The notes under the pieces were generated by a model, which was given only the letters and a program-made list of their open reading frames with translations, made no database searches and had not been told where the DNA came from. A DNA stretch of 24,652 nucleotides, taken from the IMG/VR virus record IMGVR_UViG_3300013126_003298, positions 1 through 24,652 of that record; one strand, given 5' to 3'. Shown one piece after another: positions 1,954-20,725 of the stretch (the first letter of the stretch is position 1; every line of letters begins with the position of its first letter). The position numbers and the translations under genes are program-made. The DNA is from a virus.

Positions 1954-2836
1954 AAAATATATTCTTTGTAGTGGTTGCTCGTTTACAAATCTCAGACCAT
2001 TAAATCATTTACAAAAAGGAAATGATAGAGAACAATGGCAATGGCCAGAATGGCTACAATATAAATTGGGAGATGATTTTATTGTGCTTAATTTAGGAAA
2101 CCCAACTAATGATAACAATACGATTAAAAGAACAATAACATATTGGGTGGAATATATTAAACAAAATGGTGGTATTGTTCATAAAGTATTTGCTCAATGG
2201 ACTCAACCTTACAGAAGCTCTTTTTTGATTACCGATTACAAAGGGGAATTAGAAACAGGATCACATACGAATAATTATTTACCAAACCCTATTGAATATA
2301 AAGATGAATTTTGGTTTCTAACAGGTGGTTATTATGAAGTAAACAATTCAAAATATATTGGAATTGATAATATACTTAAAACCCATCATCTTAAATTAAG
2401 TAAGCAACATTCATATTCATTTATTGAAACTGTAATAGATTTATCAAATTATTTAGAAAAAGAAAATATAGATTATAATTATTTTACTATAAAAGATATT
2501 TTTTACGAACCTGAATTTTATACTGTTAATGTATATGATGGTGAAATTTGGTTAAACGAAGAATTAGATTATCATTATAATCAAAGTAAATTTTTTTCAA
2601 TTTATTTAGATAAAGTACCATTCCATAGATTCTGGTTTTACGAGGATAAAGGATTAAAAAAAGGAGGATTGTATGAATATTCTATTAAAAAGCAAAAAGA
2701 ACTAGATGATTATAGTGGATTAAAAAAAGTTCTATTTAGTGAAAACTTAAGCGGTGAATATGATTGGTTTGGACACCCATCATCGATACTTAATAAAAAA
2801 TTTGTAAATGAAGAATTAATAAAATATATTTTATGA
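1934..2836 (+). CDS. SGNH-hydrolase-like protein, paralogue 2
   Basis: A 300-residue paralogue of the product of 98-1000. GCSFT at 14-18 gives candidate nucleophile Ser16; the block-II-like GNPTND lies about 45 residues on, an AQWTQPYRSS segment occupies the block III position, and GHPSS at 280-284 gives candidate His281. The frame begins with GTG inside the end of the epimerase gene. No ATG lies between there and the GCSFT core, so GTG at 1934 is the only reasonable start. The C-terminus (W..GHPSS..NKKFV.EEL) matches paralogue 1 closely in layout. The repeated order epimerase then SGNH suggests that the gene pair was duplicated as a unit. Catalytic function and substrate are inferred from motifs only. 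Confidence 0.65.
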   Translation: MFISANKKYILCSGCSFTNLRPLNHLQKGNDREQWQWPEWLQYKLGDDFIVLNLGNPTNDNNTIKRTITYWVEYIKQNGGIVHKVFAQWTQPYRSSFLITDYKGELETGSHTNNYLPNPIEYKDEFWFLTGGYYEVNNSKYIGIDNILKTHHLKLSKQHSYSFIETVIDLSNYLEKENIDYNYFTIKDIFYEPEFYTVNVYDGEIWLNEELDYHYNQSKFFSIYLDKVPFHRFWFYEDKGLKKGGLYEYSIKKQKELDDYSGLKKVLFSENLSGEYDWFGHPSSILNKKFVNEELIKYIL

Positions 2837-3381
2837 GCCAACCAGAATATACTCCATATAAAGACGCCTTAACAAATGCGATGAATGAATTATCTAAAAA
2901 AGATAATATAGTTTTTATTGGGCAACAAATCGTATATAGAGGAAATCCTATGAGTACAACTTTAGATGAAGTTGATAAAAATTTAATGATTGAATTACCG
3001 GTTATGGAGGAGACTCAGATGGGAATGAGTTTAGGGTTGGCATTGGCCGGTAAATTAGTAGTTACATTTTATCCACGATGGGATTTTGTAGTATCAGCTG
3101 CGAATCAGTTAATAAATCATGTTGATAAAATAACTCTAATGGATAACAGTAAATTTGAGCCACATTTAATTATAAGATTAGGTAAAGGTTCGGATAAGCC
3201 ATTAGACCCTGGCCATCAACATAAAGGAAACTATATTGAAGAATTTAAATCATTGTGTAAGAATATAGAATTTCACGATTTAAAAACTCCATCCGATATT
3301 GAGTTAAGTTACAAATATGCAATGAATAATAAAGGTATTTATTGTTTAGTAGAGTATCCTGAATTATATTATGGAACTTAA
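2833..3381 (+). CDS. Transketolase / E1-beta-type pyrimidine-binding domain protein (single domain)
   Basis: A 182-residue protein consisting of one thiamine-diphosphate pyrimidine-binding domain, as in transketolase and in the beta subunit of pyruvate or acetoin dehydrogenase E1. The key stretch ELPVMEETQMGMSLGLALAG (residues 54-73) has the conserved P-x-x-E followed by a Gly-rich helix; Glu59 is the likely cofactor-activating glutamate. A YPRWDFVVSAANQLINH segment near 80-96 and GHQH at 127-130 fit the fold. Whole enzymes also need a pyrophosphate-binding partner and usually a C-terminal transketolase domain, and neither is in this protein. A partner may lie upstream of the window, as split transketolases do occur in sugar-biosynthesis clusters. 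It starts inside the stop of the preceding gene (ATGA overlap) and overlaps the next gene by 11 bases. Confidence 0.75.
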   Translation: MSQPEYTPYKDALTNAMNELSKKDNIVFIGQQIVYRGNPMSTTLDEVDKNLMIELPVMEETQMGMSLGLALAGKLVVTFYPRWDFVVSAANQLINHVDKITLMDNSKFEPHLIIRLGKGSDKPLDPGHQHKGNYIEEFKSLCKNIEFHDLKTPSDIELSYKYAMNNKGIYCLVEYPELYYGT

Positions 3382-4711: not shown

Positions 4712-5507
4712 CGGATGCTCACATTCTGCGGGAGGAGGATTAGAAATTGACAGGTTATTAGATGATGTTGTTTTTGTAAGAGATTATTATAAAGAAAGAT
4801 ATAATGTTTGGTGGAACTCACAATTAGAAGCAACATATATAAAATATACTTCAGATGTAATTAATTGTGAATATGTAAATGAGGCAGCTAGTGGAGGAGG
4901 AAGTGAGAGAGTTATAAGAATGGCGTATGATTTTGTTAAAAAAAATTATAAAGTAAAAGAAGAATTATTTTTAGTTCTAGAATTTCCATCATTAGGTAGA
5001 ATTGATTTATATTCAAAAGAATTAAATGACTATATAATTGCCAATTTGAACTTTATAAATAATGATTATAATGATGATTCCATAGATAATGTATATGCAA
5101 CGAGGGGGTATTATATTAAAGAATATAGCAAGGATAATCTTACTTTAATAAAACCTTTTAAATCTTATTATGAGAATTTTTTGTCTAGAAAAGCTCAATT
5201 TATAAAAGTTGGTAGGGAAATTAATACGTTTTTAGCTTATTTAGCGTATCATAAAATAAAGTTTATATTTTTTACCGGTGAATTTTCTACCTCAATTGAA
5301 TCACACTTTAAAGAAAGAAACCTATTAAAATTAAAATTAGGAAATAAAATAATTGAAGATTTGCATGAATTTGCGATTCAAACAAAATCTACTATTGCTG
5401 AAGAATGTAATTTCTTAACAACTGATTTACATCCTGGCTATTTCTCACATCAAAACTTTGGAAATCTCTTAGCGGAGTACATAATTGAAAATTATGAGAT
5501 TTTTTGA
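4686..5507 (+). CDS. SGNH-hydrolase-like protein, paralogue 3 (divergent)
   Basis: A 273-residue protein. It begins with a GTG that overlaps the preceding gene by 26 bases; the block-I-like NGCSHS starts only nine residues in (Ser12 candidate nucleophile), so a later start would destroy the motif. EAASGGGSERVIR near 62-74 is a good block II, LEFPSLGRID near 99-108 takes the place of block III, and DLHP at 247-250 is a canonical D-x-H block V with His249. It is closer to ordinary SGNH proteins than paralogues 1 and 2, which have GHPS instead of D-x-H. It ends the carbohydrate cassette; a short gap with the ATATTTATA motif follows. Confidence 0.65.
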   Translation: MKIKKIYCNGCSHSAGGGLEIDRLLDDVVFVRDYYKERYNVWWNSQLEATYIKYTSDVINCEYVNEAASGGGSERVIRMAYDFVKKNYKVKEELFLVLEFPSLGRIDLYSKELNDYIIANLNFINNDYNDDSIDNVYATRGYYIKEYSKDNLTLIKPFKSYYENFLSRKAQFIKVGREINTFLAYLAYHKIKFIFFTGEFSTSIESHFKERNLLKLKLGNKIIEDLHEFAIQTKSTIAEECNFLTTDLHPGYFSHQNFGNLLAEYIIENYEIF

Positions 5508-5522: not shown

Positions 5523-7862
5523 ATGAAAGAGCTAATAAAATTTTTAGTAGAAACTTTAATCGGAGAACAAACATCCGATAAAGTAGTTGTTTACTCTGGG
5601 AGATTCCAACCTTTCCACAAAGGCCATTTTGCAACATATCAAATGCTAGTGAAAAAATTTGGAAAAGAGAATGTTTACATAGGAACATCGAATAAAACCG
5701 ATAACATTAAATCTCCATTTGGGTTTAAAGAAAAGAAATATATTATAACTAAAATGTTTGGAATACCCTCAAATAAGGTAGTTCAAATAAAAAACCCTTA
5801 TGCACCCGTTGAAATTTTAGATAAATTTGATTCTAAAACTACGGCTTTTATTACCGCAGTTGGTGAAAAAGATGAATTAAGATTAGGTGGAAAATATTTT
5901 GAAAAGTATAAAGATAACGCCGATTTGGAAGGTTATATGGATAAGGGATATGTTTATATATCTCCATCTCAGCCTAATGCTATTAGTGGAACTGATGTAA
6001 GAAATTGGTTAGGTAAAGGAAGTGAAGAAGATAGGAAAAAAGGATTTATGAAAGCGTATCCTAAGTTTGATGATAAAATTTTCAAACTCATTACACTTAC
6101 CTTAAATAAAATAACAAAAGAAAGTTTAGTAGAAACTACATTAGGTGGGTATGGAGCCGATGAAGGTGAACCCGCTACTATGTACATTCCAGATGGAACA
6201 AAAAGAATATTAGATAAAGGAAAACCTGAGCCGTGGTTTAAACAATTGGGATTCACTCAAATGGATAAACCAAAAGCGGATAATATGAGAGGAAAGGGTA
6301 GAGCGAAGGATAAAGAATCTACGTTTAGAAAGGTTTACTATAAGGTTTCTAATATAGTTACAAGTGATTTAAAGCCAGTTGAAAAACCAAAAGGTGTTGA
6401 TAGCTGGAAGCAACTTAAAAAAGAAGATGTAATCAAAGGTGGATTAGCAGCAGGGATGAGTTTGGAAGACATTGCAAAGAAACATAATGTTTCTAATAAA
6501 GAAATTGCAGATGAATTTAGAAAAGGATATAAAGTAGAAAGAGAGCATACAGCTGATACCAATGTTGCAAAAGAAATTGCATTAGACCATTTATACGAAG
6601 ACCCAAATTATTATAGTAAGTTATCTAAAATAGAAACTCCATTAAGTGAGGGCTTACTTTTAGAAGGTGGAGCGTATGGTCACATGAATCACCCATTTGA
6701 CATTGAAATGAATCTTACATTTGGTGATTTGAAGAGAATAGTAAAGCAGGCATTAAGTGGCAAGTTAGAATTAGCGAGAGAAAAAACCGATGGGCAGGCA
6801 TTAGCAGTTAGTTGGGTAAATGGTAGATTAGTTGCAGCAAGAAATAAATCACATCTTAAGAACAAAGGTAAAGATGCGATGAGTGTTCAAGATGTAATAT
6901 CAAAATTTGCTGGAAGAGGTTCTGTATCCGATGCATTTAGTTTTGCAATCAAAGATTTAGAATCTGCGATTAAAGGGTTATCTGATACTAATAAAAAGAA
7001 GATATTCAAAGACGGTAAATGTTTTATGAATTGTGAAATCATTTATCCTGAGAATACAAATGTGATTCCTTATGGTCAATCACTTTTAGTATTTCATGGA
7101 ACTATGGAATATAATGATGAGGGAACTGCAATAGGAGAGAATCCGGAAGCTGGAGCACAATTAGCCGCTATGGTAAAAAAGGTAAACGCAGATATTCAAT
7201 CTAAGTTTAAATTACAGGGGCCTCCTATACAAAAATTGCCGATTAATAAAGATTTAAAATCCAAACAATCCCTATTCCTTTCAAAAATACAATCACTTCA
7301 AAATGAATTTGGGTTGACTGAAAAAAATGGAGTAGCTGATTATCATCAGGCTTGGTGGTTAAACTTTGTAAATAAAAATACAAAAGGATTAGATGAGCAA
7401 CAGAAAATTGGATTAGTAAAGAGATGGGCTTTTGGGGATAAAGGATTCCGAATCAAAGATATTAAAGATGAGAAGAATAGAGAGTGGGCTGAAAAAATAG
7501 AAAAACAAGACCAACAAAAAATAACAAAAGAAAATCTTCTTAAATTTGAAACTATATTTTTAGGAGTTGGGGCGGAGGTTTTATCATTTATGACTTCGGT
7601 ATTGACTGTAAATCCTGATGCAGCTAAACAACAAATGGTCGGTAGATTAGAAACGGCAATTAATTCAATTAGAGCTACTGGAGATGCTAAGAATTTAGAT
7701 AAATTGGAAATAGAATTAGCTAGAATTGAAGCATTAGGTGGGTTTGATAAAATAGTTCCAAATGAAGGAATCGTATTTAATTACAAAGGGAGTACATTTA
7801 AATTGACTGGAGCTTTTGCACCTTTAAACCAAATTTTAGGAATATTCACATTCAGTAGATAA
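5523..7862 (+). CDS. Fusion: NMN-adenylyltransferase-like domain, middle phage domain, polynucleotide-ligase-like domain
   Basis: A 779-residue multidomain protein. Residues 20-195 form a nucleotidyltransferase of the NadM/cytidylyltransferase type: SGRFQPFHKGH at 25-35 with the HxGH signature (His32, His35) and ISGTDVR at 154-160. Such enzymes join NMN and ATP to make NAD. Residues about 305-370 contain GMSLEDIAKKHNVS and then VEREHT...ALDHL.EDPNYY, a pattern I associate with a phage domain of unknown function (DUF5661-like, from memory). Residues 395-779 look like a covalent nucleotidyltransferase (RNA/DNA ligase or capping type): KTDG at 421-424 (Lys421 candidate AMP/GMP-attachment residue), CEIIYP around Glu505, EGIV at 748-751 and FKLTG at 759-763. 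The N-terminus MKELIKFLVE resembles T4 capsid-targeting peptides. L-x-E sites end at Glu10, Glu204 and Glu381, close to the domain borders. The stop overlaps the next start by one base. Confidence 0.8.
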   Translation: MKELIKFLVETLIGEQTSDKVVVYSGRFQPFHKGHFATYQMLVKKFGKENVYIGTSNKTDNIKSPFGFKEKKYIITKMFGIPSNKVVQIKNPYAPVEILDKFDSKTTAFITAVGEKDELRLGGKYFEKYKDNADLEGYMDKGYVYISPSQPNAISGTDVRNWLGKGSEEDRKKGFMKAYPKFDDKIFKLITLTLNKITKESLVETTLGGYGADEGEPATMYIPDGTKRILDKGKPEPWFKQLGFTQMDKPKADNMRGKGRAKDKESTFRKVYYKVSNIVTSDLKPVEKPKGVDSWKQLKKEDVIKGGLAAGMSLEDIAKKHNVSNKEIADEFRKGYKVEREHTADTNVAKEIALDHLYEDPNYYSKLSKIETPLSEGLLLEGGAYGHMNHPFDIEMNLTFGDLKRIVKQALSGKLELAREKTDGQALAVSWVNGRLVAARNKSHLKNKGKDAMSVQDVISKFAGRGSVSDAFSFAIKDLESAIKGLSDTNKKKIFKDGKCFMNCEIIYPENTNVIPYGQSLLVFHGTMEYNDEGTAIGENPEAGAQLAAMVKKVNADIQSKFKLQGPPIQKLPINKDLKSKQSLFLSKIQSLQNEFGLTEKNGVADYHQAWWLNFVNKNTKGLDEQQKIGLVKRWAFGDKGFRIKDIKDEKNREWAEKIEKQDQQKITKENLLKFETIFLGVGAEVLSFMTSVLTVNPDAAKQQMVGRLETAINSIRATGDAKNLDKLEIELARIEALGGFDKIVPNEGIVFNYKGSTFKLTGAFAPLNQILGIFTFSR

Positions 7863-8374
7863 TGGAATTATATAAATCAAAATTAAGTTTTAATAGCGGT
7901 AAATTAATAGATGAAATAAATCTTTACTATGATACATCATCGGTTTCAAATGATAATGTAAAAATGGAAAGTTATAATACTGATTTCAGTAAATTTAGTA
8001 AATTAAAATATTTTAACGAAGAGGTTTTAGCGATATTTGATGGGATTGAATTTGATAATATCTTTCTTTTCTTTGCTCAGCCAACCGGTGGATTATTTTG
8101 GCACAAAGATGGAGGAAATCATTATAGAAGATTCATAATGCCAGTAATTTCAAATGAAAACTGTATAAATCATTTTAGAATTGAAGAAGTTGAATACCAA
8201 ATGAGGTTTACCGATGGTGTAGTTCATTGGTTTGATTCGCAGGCTATTGAACATAATGTGATAAATACCGGAGAAACAACTAGAGTGGCATTTTTATTTG
8301 ATGTGGTTTACGATGAAAGTAAATTTCAAAATATTTTAAAAAATAGTTTCGATAAACATATAGTTTTCAATTAA
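7862..8374 (+). CDS. 2-oxoglutarate/Fe(II) oxygenase-like protein (aspartyl/asparaginyl hydroxylase type)
   Basis: A 170-residue protein with a jelly-roll oxygenase signature: His81-x-Asp83 in LFWHKDGGNHYRRF, a second metal-binding His131 in IEHNVINTGETTR, and Arg141 ten residues later, which usually binds the 2-oxoglutarate carboxylate. The spacing fits aspartyl/asparaginyl beta-hydroxylase-like enzymes, which hydroxylate amino-acid side chains in proteins. All the expected metal ligands are present, so it may be active. The substrate is unknown; it could be a virion protein, a host protein or a small molecule. The start codon shares one base with the preceding stop (TAATG), so the two genes are probably translated together. 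It ends before a 39-base gap. Confidence 0.65.
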   Translation: MELYKSKLSFNSGKLIDEINLYYDTSSVSNDNVKMESYNTDFSKFSKLKYFNEEVLAIFDGIEFDNIFLFFAQPTGGLFWHKDGGNHYRRFIMPVISNENCINHFRIEEVEYQMRFTDGVVHWFDSQAIEHNVINTGETTRVAFLFDVVYDESKFQNILKNSFDKHIVFN

Positions 8375-15695: not shown

Positions 15696-16274
15696 ATGAA
15701 AATAACCAGAGAACAACTAAAATCATTAGTTGGTGAAGTGCTTCAAGAAGAAAAAGATTATCAATCGTTTTTTCAGGCAATGCTAAAAAAGCATGGCGTG
15801 GATTCACCTGCTGATTTCCAATCGGATGATGAAAAGAAAGATTTTTTCAATAAAGTTGAAAAGGCTTGGAATGGTGTATCCGAGAGATTAAAAGAAATCC
15901 ACAAAGAAGCAGCATCTGATGTAAATACTGCAAATATACCAGCAGGAATAGCAACTAAACTTGATCAGGCAACTGATAGAATGAAAGATGCTAAGATAAA
16001 TAATCAACAAAAATTACAAATTATAGCTAGAGTAATCGATGCAATCGGTTTAGATAAAATGAATTTGGCCGCATCTTTAAATAAATTGAGAACTAAGATG
16101 GAAATGACAGAGGAAGAAATGACTCAATACCAAAAAGTTTTCAAAGGTGTGATGGATAAATTCGGAATCAATTCACCTGCTGAATTGGATTCAGATGAAA
16201 AAAAGAAAGAATTTTTTAATGCAGTTGATAAAGCTTATCCAAACGAAGGAAAGATTGTTAAAATAAACCATTAA
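15696..16274 (+). CDS. Prohead-core-like protein with duplicated 39-residue module
   Basis: A 192-residue helical protein with an internal duplication. Residues 22-59 and 145-183 are alternate versions of one module: Y-Q-x-x-F, then a K-x-G-[VI]-[DN]-SPA-[DE] turn, then DEKK-[DK]-[DE]-FFN-x-V-[ED]-KA. I recall this module, alone or in tandem, in core and scaffold-type proteins of marine T4-like phages. The linker between the copies is rich in A, K and D. The N-terminus MKITREQLKSLVGEVLQEE has L-x-E sequences suited to the prohead protease encoded next door. A role in the assembly core that is later proteolysed is likely but unproven. Confidence 0.5.
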   Translation: MKITREQLKSLVGEVLQEEKDYQSFFQAMLKKHGVDSPADFQSDDEKKDFFNKVEKAWNGVSERLKEIHKEAASDVNTANIPAGIATKLDQATDRMKDAKINNQQKLQIIARVIDAIGLDKMNLAASLNKLRTKMEMTEEEMTQYQKVFKGVMDKFGINSPAELDSDEKKKEFFNAVDKAYPNEGKIVKINH

Positions 16275-16276
16275 GA

Positions 16277-16876
16277 ATGAAATCACTTTTAATAGAAACT
16301 AGATTATTTGAAGGGAAACTTAACGAAGACGAAAACGGTGTAGTTTTGGTTAAAGGTGTATTACAAAGAGCTGATGCACAAAATCAAAATGGTAGAGTGT
16401 ATCCTAAAGAAATATTAGAAAGAGAAGTTGATAAATACCAACAACTTATCAAAGAAAAAAGAGCTTTGGGTGAATTAGATCATCCTGAATCTTCAGTTGT
16501 ATCCCTTAAGAATGTTTCTCATAATATCAGAGAATGTCAATGGAATGGAGATGATTTAGTAGGTGTAGTCGAAATACTCCCAACTCCATCGGGAAATATC
16601 CTTAAAGAACTTTTGAAAGCAGGTATTCGTTTAGGAATATCATCAAGAGGCATGGGTTCAGTAGAATCTATGGGAGGAAATAAAGTAAAAGTTGGAGAAG
16701 ATTTTGAATTAATAGGTTGGGATTTTGTATCTAACCCATCAACACAAGGAGCATTTATGGAATCCTTAAATGAATCAGTTAAATTACAATTAAACGAATC
16801 TATTGGAACTGATGTATGTGGTGAGTGGTGCAAAACTCAACACTTAATAAGAGAAATAATCGAAGAGTTATCCTAA
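16277..16876 (+). CDS. 21: Prohead maturation protease (T4 gp21-like)
   Basis: A 199-residue serine protease of the T4 gp21 group (a herpesvirus-assemblin-like fold). Key parts are VLVKGVLQRADAQNQNGRVY (23-42), GELDHPESSVVSLKNVSH (65-82) with catalytic His69, and GIRLGISSRGMGSVE (116-130) with the nucleophilic Ser at 122 or 123. It would cut the scaffold, core and capsid proteins after Glu in L/I-x-E contexts once the prohead is complete. Its own N-terminus (MKSLLIETRLFEGKLNE) has two L-x-E sites, fitting self-processing. T4 gp21 is slightly longer (about 212). It lies two bases after the preceding gene and two bases before the bS21 gene. Confidence 0.9.
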   Translation: MKSLLIETRLFEGKLNEDENGVVLVKGVLQRADAQNQNGRVYPKEILEREVDKYQQLIKEKRALGELDHPESSVVSLKNVSHNIRECQWNGDDLVGVVEILPTPSGNILKELLKAGIRLGISSRGMGSVESMGGNKVKVGEDFELIGWDFVSNPSTQGAFMESLNESVKLQLNESIGTDVCGEWCKTQHLIREIIEELS

Positions 16877-16877
16877 A

Positions 16878-17093
16878 ATGGGAAAAAGATTATTAATCAA
16901 AGTTTCAAAAGGTTCATCACAGGATGAGCAACAAAGGAATTTAGAAAAGGCATTGAAAGTTCTAAAGAATAAGTTTTTTAAGACCGGAATGCAGAAAGAA
17001 TTAAGAGAAAGAACTGAATATTTAAAACCTTCGGTAAGAAAAAGATTGGAAGTAGAAAAGGCTAAGAGAAAAAATAAATTTAATTTTCTTTAG
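16878..17093 (+). CDS. rpsU: Ribosomal protein bS21 homologue
   Basis: A 71-residue very basic protein. From residue 25 it aligns without gaps to bacterial bS21 for about 30 residues: AL-[KR]-x-x-K....K-x-G....E-[LV]-R-x-R-x-x-Y-x-KP-[ST], then RKR and a Lys/Arg-rich tail. In E. coli the same segment reads ALRRFK...KAG...EVRRR..YEKP. bS21 sits on the small subunit near the 3' end of 16S rRNA; in flavobacteria it helps to hide the anti-Shine-Dalgarno sequence. Phage-encoded bS21 is known from metagenomic phages and can replace the host protein. Here it lies between the protease and scaffold genes, where T4 has no such gene. The start follows the protease stop by one base. The identification is strong; an effect on host translation is inferred. 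Confidence 0.85.
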   Translation: MGKRLLIKVSKGSSQDEQQRNLEKALKVLKNKFFKTGMQKELRERTEYLKPSVRKRLEVEKAKRKNKFNFL

Positions 17094-17110: not shown

Positions 17111-17119
17111 ATATTTATA
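17111..17119 (+). promoter_or_regulatory. Intergenic ATATTTATA motif, copy 5
   Basis: An exact copy at the upstream end of the longest gap in the window (17094-17226), 107 bases before the scaffold ATG. It precedes two possible stem-loops. Confidence 0.45.
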
Positions 17120-17135
17120 GATAATTGATTCGAAT

Positions 17136-17207
17136 ACCTCATCACTTTTTATATGAGGTCACCCTATAATCAAGTAATATCATTTGGACACACTTTCATT
17201 AGTCCAA
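17136..17207 (+). ncRNA. Two-hairpin 5' leader upstream of the scaffold gene
   Basis: In the 133-base gap before the scaffold gene two stem-loops are visible. ACCTCAT (17136-17142) pairs with ATGAGGT (17153-17159) around a 10-base loop, and TTGGAC (17184-17189) pairs with GTCCAA (17202-17207) around a 12-base loop. There is no T-run after either, so they are not typical terminators. They could be a stabilising leader, an RNA-processing site or a regulator-binding element for the abundant scaffold and capsid mRNAs. I do not recognise a known riboswitch. Confidence 0.35.
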
Positions 17208-17226
17208 GCAAATTCACAAATTTAAG

Positions 17227-18303
17227 ATGAATAGCAAATTGTTAAAAGAAGCAATTGCAGATGCTAAAGCTGTTAGAGAAACCGCGTTGGCTAATGCAAA
17301 AATCGCTCTTGAAGAAGCATTCACTCCTAAACTTCAATCTATGCTTTCTAGAAAATTACAAGAAGAATTAGAAGACGAAGAAGTGAAAGAAGAAGAAGAG
17401 GTAGAATTGACTCAAGAGAATGATGTATCTTCAGAAATCGGAAAAGGTGATGGTACTAAAATGCCAGCAGCCGCAGCTTTCGATTCAGCCGCAAAATCAG
17501 ATGAATTAGGTGCAGCAGAAGTTGATCAAATTTCTGCAGAAGTTGGTTCAGAAGATGAAAACGCTGAAAAAGTAGCGGGTATCACCGAAGGTGAAGAAGA
17601 AGAGGAAGACATCACAGGTGCAACTCCTGGTTCAGGATTGAACGAAGAAGAAGAAATTGATGAAGATGAATTAGACATCGAAGAAATCATCAGAGAATTG
17701 GAAGCAGATGCAGATGCAGAAGAAGCTCCTGTAGCTGAAGAAGAGCACGAAGAAGAGGCTCCAGCGGCAGTAGCAGAACCAGCAGCTGAAGAAGCTCCAG
17801 TTGAAGAAGAAGAGGAAATCGATTTAGACGAAATCCTTAGAGAAATGGGATACGGAGATGAAGCTGAAGAAGAAGCTCCTGTAGCTGAAGAAGAAGATGG
17901 TGAAGACCATTCTGCTGAATTAGCTGCAAAAGATGCCGAATTGGAAGAAGCATACAAAGTAATCGGTTCTTTAAGAAAGACTATTAACGAAGTAAATCTT
18001 CTTAACGCTAAGTTGTTGTATGTGAACAAATTGTTCAGAGGATACAACTTAACTAACGAACAAAAGACTAAGGTTGTTGAAACTTTAGATAGAACAAAGA
18101 ATGTAAGAGAAGTGAAATTAGTTTACACTACAATTGCAGAATCATTTAAAATTGGTTCATCAGCAACTAAGAAAACTGCAACTAAACTTACAGAAAGTTA
18201 CGCATCAAAGCCAGCAGCATCTACTGCACCTGCAAAACAAATTATCTCTGAAGATAATTCTGCAGCTGATAGATTCAAAAAATTAGCTGGTATTATCAAA
18301 TAA
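17227..18303 (+). CDS. 22: Prohead core scaffolding protein (T4 gp22-like)
   Basis: A 358-residue highly acidic scaffold (T4 gp22 is 269). The N-terminus LLKEAIADAKAVRETALANA (5-24), then ALEEAFTPKLQSMLSRKLQE, is the conserved start of marine T4-like gp22 proteins. Residues about 45-230 are an Asp/Glu/Ala/Pro-rich region with an imperfectly repeated module (EEIDxDE....REL and EAPVAEEE). Residues 230-300 form a helical domain (LEEAYKVIGSLRKTINEVN), and the end is DRFKKLAGIIK. It forms the inner core on which the capsid protein assembles and is then digested by the gp21-type protease. The extra length is in the acidic region. Leader: structured, no Shine-Dalgarno sequence. Confidence 0.85.
   Translation: MNSKLLKEAIADAKAVRETALANAKIALEEAFTPKLQSMLSRKLQEELEDEEVKEEEEVELTQENDVSSEIGKGDGTKMPAAAAFDSAAKSDELGAAEVDQISAEVGSEDENAEKVAGITEGEEEEEDITGATPGSGLNEEEEIDEDELDIEEIIRELEADADAEEAPVAEEEHEEEAPAAVAEPAAEEAPVEEEEEIDLDEILREMGYGDEAEEEAPVAEEEDGEDHSAELAAKDAELEEAYKVIGSLRKTINEVNLLNAKLLYVNKLFRGYNLTNEQKTKVVETLDRTKNVREVKLVYTTIAESFKIGSSATKKTATKLTESYASKPAASTAPAKQIISEDNSAADRFKKLAGIIK
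17719..17894 (+). repeat. 26-base direct repeat inside the scaffold gene
   Basis: The same 26 bases, coding for the EEAPVAEE module, occur at 17719-17744 and 17869-17894, 150 bases apart and in the same frame. Identical nucleotides at both sites suggest a recent internal duplication or gene conversion, and a possible site of slippage or deletion. Confidence 0.7.
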
Positions 18304-18340: not shown

Positions 18341-19990
18341 ATGGCAAACTTTAATGTTAAATCATTATTAGAGGCGAAAAATCCTCAAGCTATTATGTTG
18401 GAACAAACTAGAGGTTTGAAGGGTAAATGGGATAAAACCGGTTTATTAGAAGGCCTTAAGGAAAGAGACCAACATTCAATGGCTGTATTGTTAGAGAACC
18501 AAGCTCAACAATTATTGAGTGAGGCAACTGCAACTGGAACAACTGCAGGTTCAGAAGAATGGTCAGGTGTTGCTTTACCATTGGTAAGAAGAATTTTCGG
18601 TGAAATCGCTGCAAAAGAATTCGTTTCAGTTCAACCAATGAACTTACCTTCAGGTTTGATTTTCTTCATGGATTTCAAATATGGTAGCTCTCAAAATGGT
18701 AGAACTGCTGGTGATTCTTTATACGGCGGTACTGGAGCTAAATTTGCTAGAACTGATGCTGCATCAGGTGGTCTTTATGGTGAAGGTAAATATGGCTACA
18801 CTTTAGCACCAACTGCAAGTGCAAGTATCACTTCTGCAACTATTTCTGATGCATCTCACGCTGATGTAGGTTTCAATGCTGAATACTCTGCATCTATTGA
18901 AGCTAAGAAAATTAGAAAAGTAGTTTTAACTGCTTCTCAATTAACTAACTTAGATTTAGAAGCTATCAAATTGATATCTTTAACATCTAACACCGGTTCA
19001 GTAGTAATTCCTGCTGCGGGACAACTTGAAGACTTAGCTGAGCATAATTATGCTGGTTCTACTGTAACTTTATTCTTTGAACAAGCTAATGCTACTGCAT
19101 TTACAACCGGTTCAAAGACTTTCACAGGTCAATTAACTGCTTCTTATCATACTCAACCTGTATCTTTCAATAGAGGTGATTTCGAAGACCAATCTCCAAT
19201 CGCAGGTGGTTCAAACCAATTGTCTGGAACTAACTTGAACATTCCAGAAGTTGATTTGGAATTGAAGAGTGAATCAATCGTTGCTAAGACTCGTAAGTTG
19301 AAAGCAGTATGGACTCCAGAATTGGCACAAGACTTGAACGCTTACCACTCAATTGATGCGGAAGCTGAATTAACTTCAATGTTATCTGAATACATCTCTT
19401 TAGAAATCGATTTAGAAATCTTAGATATGTTGCAAGTAAACGCATTGACAGTTGATTACTGGTCAACTAACGTAGGTGAAGAGTATAACGCTGCAACTGG
19501 TGTTTGGACTGCAGGTTCAGCTTCTTTGGCTTACCAAAAAGCTACTTGGTTCCAGACTTTAGGAGTTAAGTTAAACAAAGTATCTAATAAGATTCACCAA
19601 TTGACTATGAGAGGTGGAGCAAACTTCATTGTATGTTCTCCTGACGTAGCTACAATCTTAGAATCTATCCCAGGATTCCACGTGAATGCTGAGAAAGATG
19701 CATTGCAATTCGCTGCTGGAGTATCAGTAGTAGGTTCAATCTCTAACAGATACACTGTTTACAAGAACCCTTATATGACTTCTAACCAAATATTGTTAGG
19801 ATTCAAAGGTGCTAACTTCCTTGAGACTGGTGCGGTATATGCTCCGTATGTACCATTGATTATGACTCCATTAGTGTATGACCCAGACAACTTTACACCT
19901 CGTAGAGGAGTCATGACAAGATACGCTAAGAAGATAGTTAGACCGGAATTTTACGGAAAAATCTATGTTAAAGACTTAGCTAACTTGTAA
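18341..19990 (+). CDS. 23: Major capsid protein (T4 gp23-like)
   Basis: A 549-residue capsid protein (T4 gp23 is 521). The N-terminal region ends with LLSE at 58-61 followed by ATATGTTAG, a good match to the gp21 cleavage context (T4 gp23 is cut after Glu65), so the mature form should start near residue 62. VRRIFGEIAAKEFVSVQPMN (82-101) and SGLIFFMDFKYG (104-115) match the start of the mature T4-type fold. Residues about 153-300 are a Ser/Thr/Ala-rich insert. The core resumes at EVDLELKSESIVAKTRKLKA (303-322) and runs to the C-terminal P-domain, including VYDPDNFTPRRGVMTRYAKK (512-531). A strong terminator follows 38 bases after the stop. Confidence 0.93.
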   Translation: MANFNVKSLLEAKNPQAIMLEQTRGLKGKWDKTGLLEGLKERDQHSMAVLLENQAQQLLSEATATGTTAGSEEWSGVALPLVRRIFGEIAAKEFVSVQPMNLPSGLIFFMDFKYGSSQNGRTAGDSLYGGTGAKFARTDAASGGLYGEGKYGYTLAPTASASITSATISDASHADVGFNAEYSASIEAKKIRKVVLTASQLTNLDLEAIKLISLTSNTGSVVIPAAGQLEDLAEHNYAGSTVTLFFEQANATAFTTGSKTFTGQLTASYHTQPVSFNRGDFEDQSPIAGGSNQLSGTNLNIPEVDLELKSESIVAKTRKLKAVWTPELAQDLNAYHSIDAEAELTSMLSEYISLEIDLEILDMLQVNALTVDYWSTNVGEEYNAATGVWTAGSASLAYQKATWFQTLGVKLNKVSNKIHQLTMRGGANFIVCSPDVATILESIPGFHVNAEKDALQFAAGVSVVGSISNRYTVYKNPYMTSNQILLGFKGANFLETGAVYAPYVPLIMTPLVYDPDNFTPRRGVMTRYAKKIVRPEFYGKIYVKDLANL

Positions 19991-20028
19991 TCTTTGGATT
20001 AAAAGTTAAACTTTAATATAAAAAAATT

Positions 20029-20056
20029 GGGGATGAGAAATCATCCCCTTTTTTAT
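20029..20056 (+). terminator. Intrinsic terminator after the major capsid gene
   Basis: GGGGATGA (20029-20036), a GAAA tetraloop, TCATCCCC (20041-20048), then TTTTTT. An eight-base-pair GC-containing stem with a stable GNRA loop and a T-run is a textbook rho-independent terminator. It would end the scaffold-capsid transcript. Confidence 0.9.
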
Positions 20057-20077
20057 GTCTTTTTTATATTTAAATTT

Positions 20078-20725
20078 ATGAGGTTACATACAATAAAGGA
20101 TAAGTACGAAATAGGTAAGATTAAGACTTACGAAGATGTTCCAGGTTGGATAGGCTGTGCAGAGGATATTTACAAAATAATAATTGATAAGTTAGAAGAC
20201 GGGGATTCTATTGTAGAAATAGGTACATTCTTTGGTCAATCAACAATCTTTATGGCATCCTTAATAAAGGAAAGTGGTAAAAGGATAAACTTTGATACCA
20301 TAGATTCTCTTTGGCAGATAGATGCGGATGTTAGAAGAGGTGATCATCCACAATCTTTTTATGATTATCGTTTCTCAAAAGAATTAACAAATATTCCAAT
20401 AGATGAGTTAATTAAAGCACATTATCGATTATGTGGGGTTGAGGAATACATCAATCTTATGATAGGAGATAGTAGATGGTTATGGAAATGGTATGAAGAA
20501 GAATCTCTTAAATTCGTCTATATAGATGGAGATCATAATTACGAAATAGTAAAATTAGATATGGAGAATTGGTGGGGTAGAGTTCAAAAAGGGGGATATA
20601 TGGGAGGAGATGATATAGATGCGTATCCATCGGTTTTAAGAGCGATGAACGAATTAATAGAAAAAGAAGAAATCTCAAACGAAAGAGTTCAGATATTCCC
20701 AAATTCTTTTTTAATTCAAAAATGA
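20078..20725 (+). CDS. Class I SAM-dependent methyltransferase
   Basis: A 215-residue protein from the ATG at 20078. The frame also opens at a TTG at 20027, but that start would lie inside the terminator stem, so it is rejected. Motif I is VEIGTFFGQST at 46-56 (SAM-binding loop), TIDSLW near 74-79 has the acidic end of strand 2, and FVYIDGDHNYEIVKLDMENW (146-165) with KGGYMGGDD (171-179) is typical of the Methyltransf_24/CmcI/macrocin-O-methyltransferase group, which methylates sugars or small molecules, sometimes with a metal bound by the Asp/His residues. The substrate is unknown; a sugar made by the cassette at 1-5507 is possible but distant. No Shine-Dalgarno sequence. Confidence 0.75.
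   Translation: MRLHTIKDKYEIGKIKTYEDVPGWIGCAEDIYKIIIDKLEDGDSIVEIGTFFGQSTIFMASLIKESGKRINFDTIDSLWQIDADVRRGDHPQSFYDYRFSKELTNIPIDELIKAHYRLCGVEEYINLMIGDSRWLWKWYEEESLKFVYIDGDHNYEIVKLDMENWWGRVQKGGYMGGDDIDAYPSVLRAMNELIEKEEISNERVQIFPNSFLIQK

Follow-up and report, generated by a model that had tools for sequence, protein, structure and literature searches.

A ribosomal protein bS21 is encoded among the T4-type head genes of the phage DNA analysed here (the window, denoting the whole stretch of 24,652 nucleotides), and carries an arginine at the position of the tyrosine (Tyr54) that helps to lock the 16S rRNA 3′ tail in F. johnsoniae ribosomes. A phage bS21 with Arg at this tail-locking residue may alter how host ribosomes work at late stages of infection, and the consequence which we consider most likely, while placing it somewhat short of an even chance, is that the protein enters the 30S subunit with the 3′ tail held less firmly or differently. 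The relevant features are:

16277..16876, + strand: T4-type prohead protease (S77), directly upstream of bS21 (PF03420, E 4.1e-27; phrog_207, E 1.3e-51)
16854..16877, + strand: bS21 leader lacking a Shine-Dalgarno (SD) sequence (sequence and class table)
16878..17093, + strand: bS21 gene, 71 amino acids, net charge +14 (PF01165; PHROG 21469; dN far below dS)
17067..17069, + strand: codon aga for Arg64, which corresponds to Tyr54 in F. johnsoniae (aligned without gaps to 7jil_z as far as K63/A53)
17111..17119, + strand: promoter-like ATATTTATA, putative promoter (strand bias against shuffles)
17114..17212, + strand: structured RNA element in the scaffold leader (covariation; model R1 match of 41.7 bits)
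17125-17130/17168-17173 (P1), 17136-17142/17153-17159 (P2) and 17183-17189/17202-17208 (P3), + strand: RNA helices
17227..18303, + strand: acidic scaffold-like protein, 358 amino acids, net charge -60 (position and charge; putative role)
18341..19990, + strand: major capsid protein Gp23 (PF07068, E 9e-79)

The preliminary description of this DNA had reported a 71-residue bS21 with a nearly gapless core at 16878-17093, and the reading frame is indeed open as described. The translated product matches the Pfam Ribosomal_S21 profile (41.6 bits against a curated cut-off of 27; E 9.8e-11), with residues 20-66 aligned on positions 8-54 of the 55 in the profile, while PHROG 21469 ('ribosomal protein S21') constitutes a second family match. 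The best solved relatives are F. johnsoniae bS21 (7jil_z) and 9i5v, the former aligning without gaps to residues 20-63 (phmmer; E 7.9e-9). Comparison of the window with four close relatives (L002-L005; 86-90% identity) yields dN values of 0.042-0.099 against dS values of 0.47-0.97, indicating purifying selection, and dS reaches up to 1.17 within this set of five. The profile match and the low dN relative to dS together rule out a chance open reading frame or misread gene. The N-terminus contains an insertion of seven to eight residues compared with most relatives. An AlphaFold2 model (pLDDT 79; pTM 0.46) predicts helices at residues 15-36, 38-43 and 53-70, and a Foldseek search with this free, off-ribosome model returned no match at E 0.001 or better.

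The window, an IMG/VR virus record, comprises a T4-type head module, encoding terminase, the portal protein Gp20, the S77 protease, bS21, the acidic scaffold-like protein and Gp23, and the gene order is the same in L002-L005. The bS21 gene starts one nucleotide past the protease stop codon. No family match in Pfam or PHROG was obtained for the product of 17227-18303, and its strongly negative charge and location before the capsid gene suggest that it is the scaffold. The earlier placement of bS21 between protease and scaffold genes is thereby borne out, with the scaffold role putative. Its further placement inside a capsid operon holds insofar as the gene lies among head genes on the same strand, but the promoter-like ATATTTATA at 17111, 3′ of bS21, means that it may rather be the last gene of an upstream unit. 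The gene preceding the protease (15696-16274) varies in length, coding for 192 amino acids in the window, with open frames of 349, 270 and 276 amino acids in L002, L003 and L005, respectively.

The distribution of bS21 among relatives was determined in a scan based on the capsid protein alone, covering the best 80 of at least 595 loci, 50 of which were profiled as whole records. A PF01165 match is present in 25 of these 50 records (24 above the cut-off), one of the 25 being located approximately 100 kb away from the capsid gene. Where both protease and capsid genes are visible in this set, bS21 lies between them on the same strand in 24/47 loci. Its presence requires at least nine changes on the capsid tree, in which some rows scored as absent are fragments without the region. 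A 75-amino-acid gene at the equivalent location in Flavobacterium phage immuto (L007:9242-9469) is not a bS21 gene, but an unrelated hypothetical gene without a Pfam match. By capsid protein, immuto and Microcystis phage Mel-JY01 are the nearest annotated phages, behind a 484-kb phage record, while Rhodothermus phage RM378 is more distant. The host is probably a member of the Bacteroidia, as judged from the G+C content of 31%, the SD-less leaders and the Bacteroidia-like bS21 core. No tRNAs were found in the 24,652-base window, and several host-like enzyme genes are present (997-1953, 2833-3381, 5523-7862, 7862-8374 and 20027-20725), with NAD-dependent epimerase, transketolase pyrimidine-binding, cytidylyltransferase-like, Asp/Asn hydroxylase-like and methyltransferase domains.

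Bacteroidia ribosomes are reported to be SD-blind, with the 16S 3′ tail held by bS21, bS18 and bS6; in F. johnsoniae, bS21 contributes Tyr54, which is stacked against A1534 and guides the tail into the pocket formed by these proteins (PMC9976891). In the in vitro experiments of the same report, Y54A and deltaC ribosomes produced approximately three- and five-fold more protein from an SD message, while on an SD-less message the yield of Y54A ribosomes was similar to wild type with a lower toeprint affinity (PMC9976891). The class therefore represents a sharp case, in which a single bS21 tyrosine helps to hide the anti-SD and the effect has been measured. Arg64 of the window protein lies opposite this tyrosine in the phmmer alignment and in two further alignments, all ungapped there; another alignment is gapped at this site, and KRKNK flanks it under either alignment. 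The loss of rRNA-contact residues had been named in advance as evidence against the preliminary interpretation, and it is found at one contact, where Tyr54 is replaced.

Non-aromatic residues occupy position 54 in 22/26 bS21 proteins of the capsid-only scan (best 80 of at least 595 loci), with aromatic residues in the remaining four (L012, L041, L069 and L035). A bS21-based scan of 80 loci, biased towards its Arg54 query, recovered 65 Arg, 13 Tyr, one Gln and one cut-off protein; the retention of a basic residue in this biased set argues for function rather than decay. The phage bS21 proteins reported for Bacteroidetes phages are aromatic at this position in 61/61 cases (Chen 2022, PMC9723584). 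When 117 loci are tabulated, five contigs being counted twice (L031/L320, L042/L327, L030/L334, L044/L364 and L025/L387), bS21 is non-aromatic and on the strand of the head genes in 95, aromatic and on the opposite strand in seven, and aromatic and on the same strand in four, while no head genes are in view for eight aromatic and two non-aromatic proteins and one is cut off. Although this raw table is striking, no link between residue 54 and strand is claimed, given the double-counted contigs and the single change of bS21 strand on the major capsid protein tree. Among the literature matches listed, no publication describes a phage bS21 altered at residue 54 beyond the papers cited here.

The 80 nearest cellular bS21 proteins (best 80 of 535, retrieved with a pattern that excludes residue 54) comprise 79 with Tyr and one with His at this position. 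Among 123 bS21 loci of the same phylum, drawn from 118 evenly sampled genomes and three further loci (with one genome read twice and two cut-off copies of G149 excluded), 88 carry Arg, 33 Tyr and two His. Arg54 is thus frequent in those members of the phylum that fall outside the Bacteroidia type, the class names being based on how we read the sequences and PMC9976891. A log-odds classifier built on bS21 residues 10-53, with near kin removed, correctly assigned 31/31 and 74/74 cellular sequences and places the window core at +36.8 bits, on the Bacteroidia (aromatic-54) side, the lowest aromatic cellular score being 11.3 and the highest Arg54 cellular score -16.5. Bacteroidia-side cores are likewise found in 53 of 66 distinct non-aromatic phage bS21 proteins. 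A branch of the core tree (SH-aLRT 95) unites the window with 17 other non-aromatic phage rows and 41 aromatic cellular proteins, and includes none of the 75 cellular Arg proteins. The proposed comparison with cellular bS21 by phylogeny hence groups the window with aromatic cells, but AU tests on the few available columns do not reject alternative groupings of the Arg54 phages (p 0.33-0.67). A change from Tyr to Arg within the phage line is for this reason likely, not proven, and Arg54 as host-like ancestry is neither shown nor excluded by these comparisons.

The closest published system is that of the Bacteroidetes myoviruses of Chen 2022, where bS21 is likewise reported to lie in a T4-type head module, near the genes for terminase, portal, protease and capsid, and is most similar to Bacteroidetes bS21 (PMC9723584). 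In those phages, however, bS21 is encoded on the strand opposite to the head genes and is aromatic at position 54 (PMC9723584), whereas in the window the gene follows the protease on the same strand and codes for Arg. Four loci with the former layout (Tyr54, opposite strand) have capsid proteins far from that of the window on the tree. The F. johnsoniae protein (7jil) shares the gapless core and differs in the tyrosine, the absence of the N-terminal insertion and the SD that precedes its gene. The bS21 of pelagiphage HTVC008M is also encoded by a T4-like phage and was shown to enter E. coli 70S ribosomes (PMC6375957); by annotation alone, the HTVC008M stretch (L401) has no gene named S21 between its protease and prohead core protein. 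RpsU of Microcystis phage Mel-JY01 (PP395634, L008) resembles the window in head module, strand and non-aromatic residue 54, but its core scores -41.6 bits, on the non-Bacteroidia side, and its group uses SDs.

The preliminary observation that nearly all genes of the window lack an SD is upheld, with an SD-like motif preceding 2/25 genes compared with 17/120 internal ATGs, and the clade of the window shows no SD enrichment at -20..-5. The bS21 genes of this clade also lack an SD, unlike rpsU of many Flavobacteriales. A Tyr54 bS21 gene in a 735-kb phage record (LR756501; L011:7971-8168) is preceded by an extended SD, AAAGGAGG, resembling that of the autoregulated rpsU of Flavobacteriales. A general SD signal is likewise absent from the large Arg54 group and from the reverse-strand Tyr54 group. 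Two sister groups with Arg/Lys-54 bS21 nevertheless use SDs, namely the Mel-JY01-like group (0.41 of 83 genes; L008, L071, L089, L078 and L080) and the L067-like group (0.50 of genes; L067, L072, L079 and L084). Six of these nine loci have clearly or mildly non-Bacteroidia cores, L072 and L067 score slightly positive, and one is a duplicate. Phage SD use does not track residue 54, since these Arg/Lys-54 groups use SDs and the window clade and large Arg54 group do not.

Under the reading we tentatively favour, a T4-like phage whose host is probably one of the Bacteroidia would make its own bS21 along with its head proteins, and as bS21 joins the 30S subunit late and is exchangeable, the phage copy would replace the host copy in a share of ribosomes. 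Without Tyr54, the grip of these ribosomes on the 16S 3′ tail would be looser or of another kind, and the choice or rate of initiation would then differ from that of host ribosomes during late gene expression. We infer the incorporation step from this late, exchangeable binding and from the reported entry of the pelagiphage protein into E. coli ribosomes (PMC6375957), while the location among same-strand late head genes, the Bacteroidia-type core and the arginine itself speak for this reading, as does the measured effect of Tyr54 loss in F. johnsoniae (PMC9976891). Arg might, however, contact the tail by stacking or binding no less well than Tyr does, and in Borrelia a Lys53 has been judged to be compatible with binding of the tail (PMC10618245). 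As messages of the window lack SDs, a freed anti-SD would also have no obvious phage partner, and the frequency of Arg54 in the phylum and the AU tests, which keep that grouping open, argue against a phage-specific change. A bolder version, in which T4-like phages took a Bacteroidia bS21 and swapped its tyrosine for the basic residue of other classes to unlock the host anti-SD late in infection, appears unlikely; if true, a widely distributed group of T4-like phages would encode a switch between modes of initiation. It would fit the AAGGA/AAGGAG motif found before the scaffold start in 22/30 distinct leaders of Arg54 relatives with Bacteroidia cores, the same motif occurring in 3/36 capsid and 1/39 bS21 leaders of these relatives. 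The scaffold gene of the window itself lacks this motif before its start, however, 14/19 relatives without bS21 in view possess it, and no association between scaffold SD and bS21 is apparent on the tree, where three to four independent pairs are available.

Alternatively, the phage protein may be plain supply, ensuring that no 30S subunit lacks bS21 once the expression of host genes has ceased, with Arg54 equivalent or host-matching and message choice unchanged. We place this explanation second, well short of an even chance. In its favour, bS21 is reported to be indispensable to F. johnsoniae and to join the subunit at a late stage of assembly (PMC9976891), and a host-matching Arg54 would accord with its frequency in other classes and with the AU tests, which leave such an origin open. 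It sits poorly with a core resembling that of the Bacteroidia, where the nearest 80 cellular copies are all aromatic at position 54, and with the retention of an aromatic residue in 7/7 reverse-strand phages. The idea that phage bS21 takes over ribosomes at a late stage has already appeared in print for Bacteroidetes phages (PMC9723584), and both that report and the preliminary description have ribosomes biased towards the messages of the phage, which here would be SD-less or A-rich. The late gene neighbourhood, the SD-less leaders and the late co-expression described in related phages (PMC9723584) are in line with such a bias, but SD-lessness does not separate phage from host messages where ribosomes are already SD-blind, and in F. 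johnsoniae the loss of Tyr54 shifts output towards SD messages, the opposite direction (PMC9976891). The proposed switch to leaderless or A-rich messages is accordingly unsupported and quite improbable, and what stands of the original interpretation is the identity of the gene, its neighbours and the lack of SDs. A brake on the ribosome, whereby phage bS21 yields poorly active ribosomes and dampens host translation, is very improbable: E. coli ribosomes with pelagiphage bS21 gave approximately 5% of wild-type GFP (PMC6375957), but E. coli was a foreign host in that experiment and slowed translation during capsid production would harm the phage. Most improbable of all would be a head protein, the basic bS21 being packaged into the prohead together with the acidic scaffold and entering the next cell along with the phage DNA upon injection, to which the opposite charges of the neighbouring products and a suggestion of packaging in PMC9723584 lend themselves. 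The natural series of phages with Tyr or Arg at position 54 makes it possible to test, with single proteins in a cultivable laboratory strain, whether viruses remodel ribosomes to select messages.

The 133 bases separating bS21 from the scaffold gene are near invariant in the window and L002-L005 (mean column identity of 92%), in contrast to a bS21 dS of up to 1.17 in this set, and similar leaders precede the scaffold gene across the family whether bS21 is present or not, so that we draw no link between the leader RNA and bS21. Helix P3 shows 95.4% of cells paired across 29 sequences and changes on both sides in 5/6 pairs, in a register that was chosen after inspection of the aligned strands and in which the P3 of the window itself is misaligned by one column. 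Shuffled alignments reached these values in 0/500 cases on four of five measures and 9/500 on the fifth, and slid registers were at most 47% paired. P2 forms at least six pairs in 23/50 sequences (controls: mean 4.2; maximum 11), and a stem search reads compensating forms of P1 (including gttggtt/aaccaac, gttgatt/aatcaac and ttcggtt/aaccgaa). An RNA model built on the 29 sequences matched 59/73 loci, once each and always at the scaffold leader in coding-strand orientation; 30 of the 59 were not used in model building, many being close kin of training rows. A single strong match was obtained in 10/10 whole records, weaker ones having E >0.4. No match occurs in the Tyr54 loci L384, L386, L391, L396, L397 and L399, five of them reverse-strand, or in the RM378 and HTVC008M stretches. 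RNAalifold detected no covariation in the five closest sequences, which hardly vary, and the leader of the window folds with mild stability (z -1.54). Rfam yielded no match at gathering level and chance-like matches below it, and no paper on this element was among the literature matches listed. We would guess that it is a late 5′ leader controlling scaffold translation or message stability, and it provides a separate lead on the handling of late phage messages in these hosts. Two to three hairpins are seen in further examples (L031:6628-6722, L007:9517-9609 and L008:11765-11853).

The motif ATATTTATA, one copy of which precedes this element at 17111, occurs seven times on the + strand of the window and never on the - strand, against approximately two expected on both, and 0/100 shuffles reach seven. 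A comparable strand bias is observed for ATATTTAT[AT] in 16 relatives (80 versus 11), and the motif may represent the late promoter of these phages. The sites in the window are located at 5507, 8390, 11532, 14336, 15625, 17111 and 20725, several of them 16-54 nt before a gene start.
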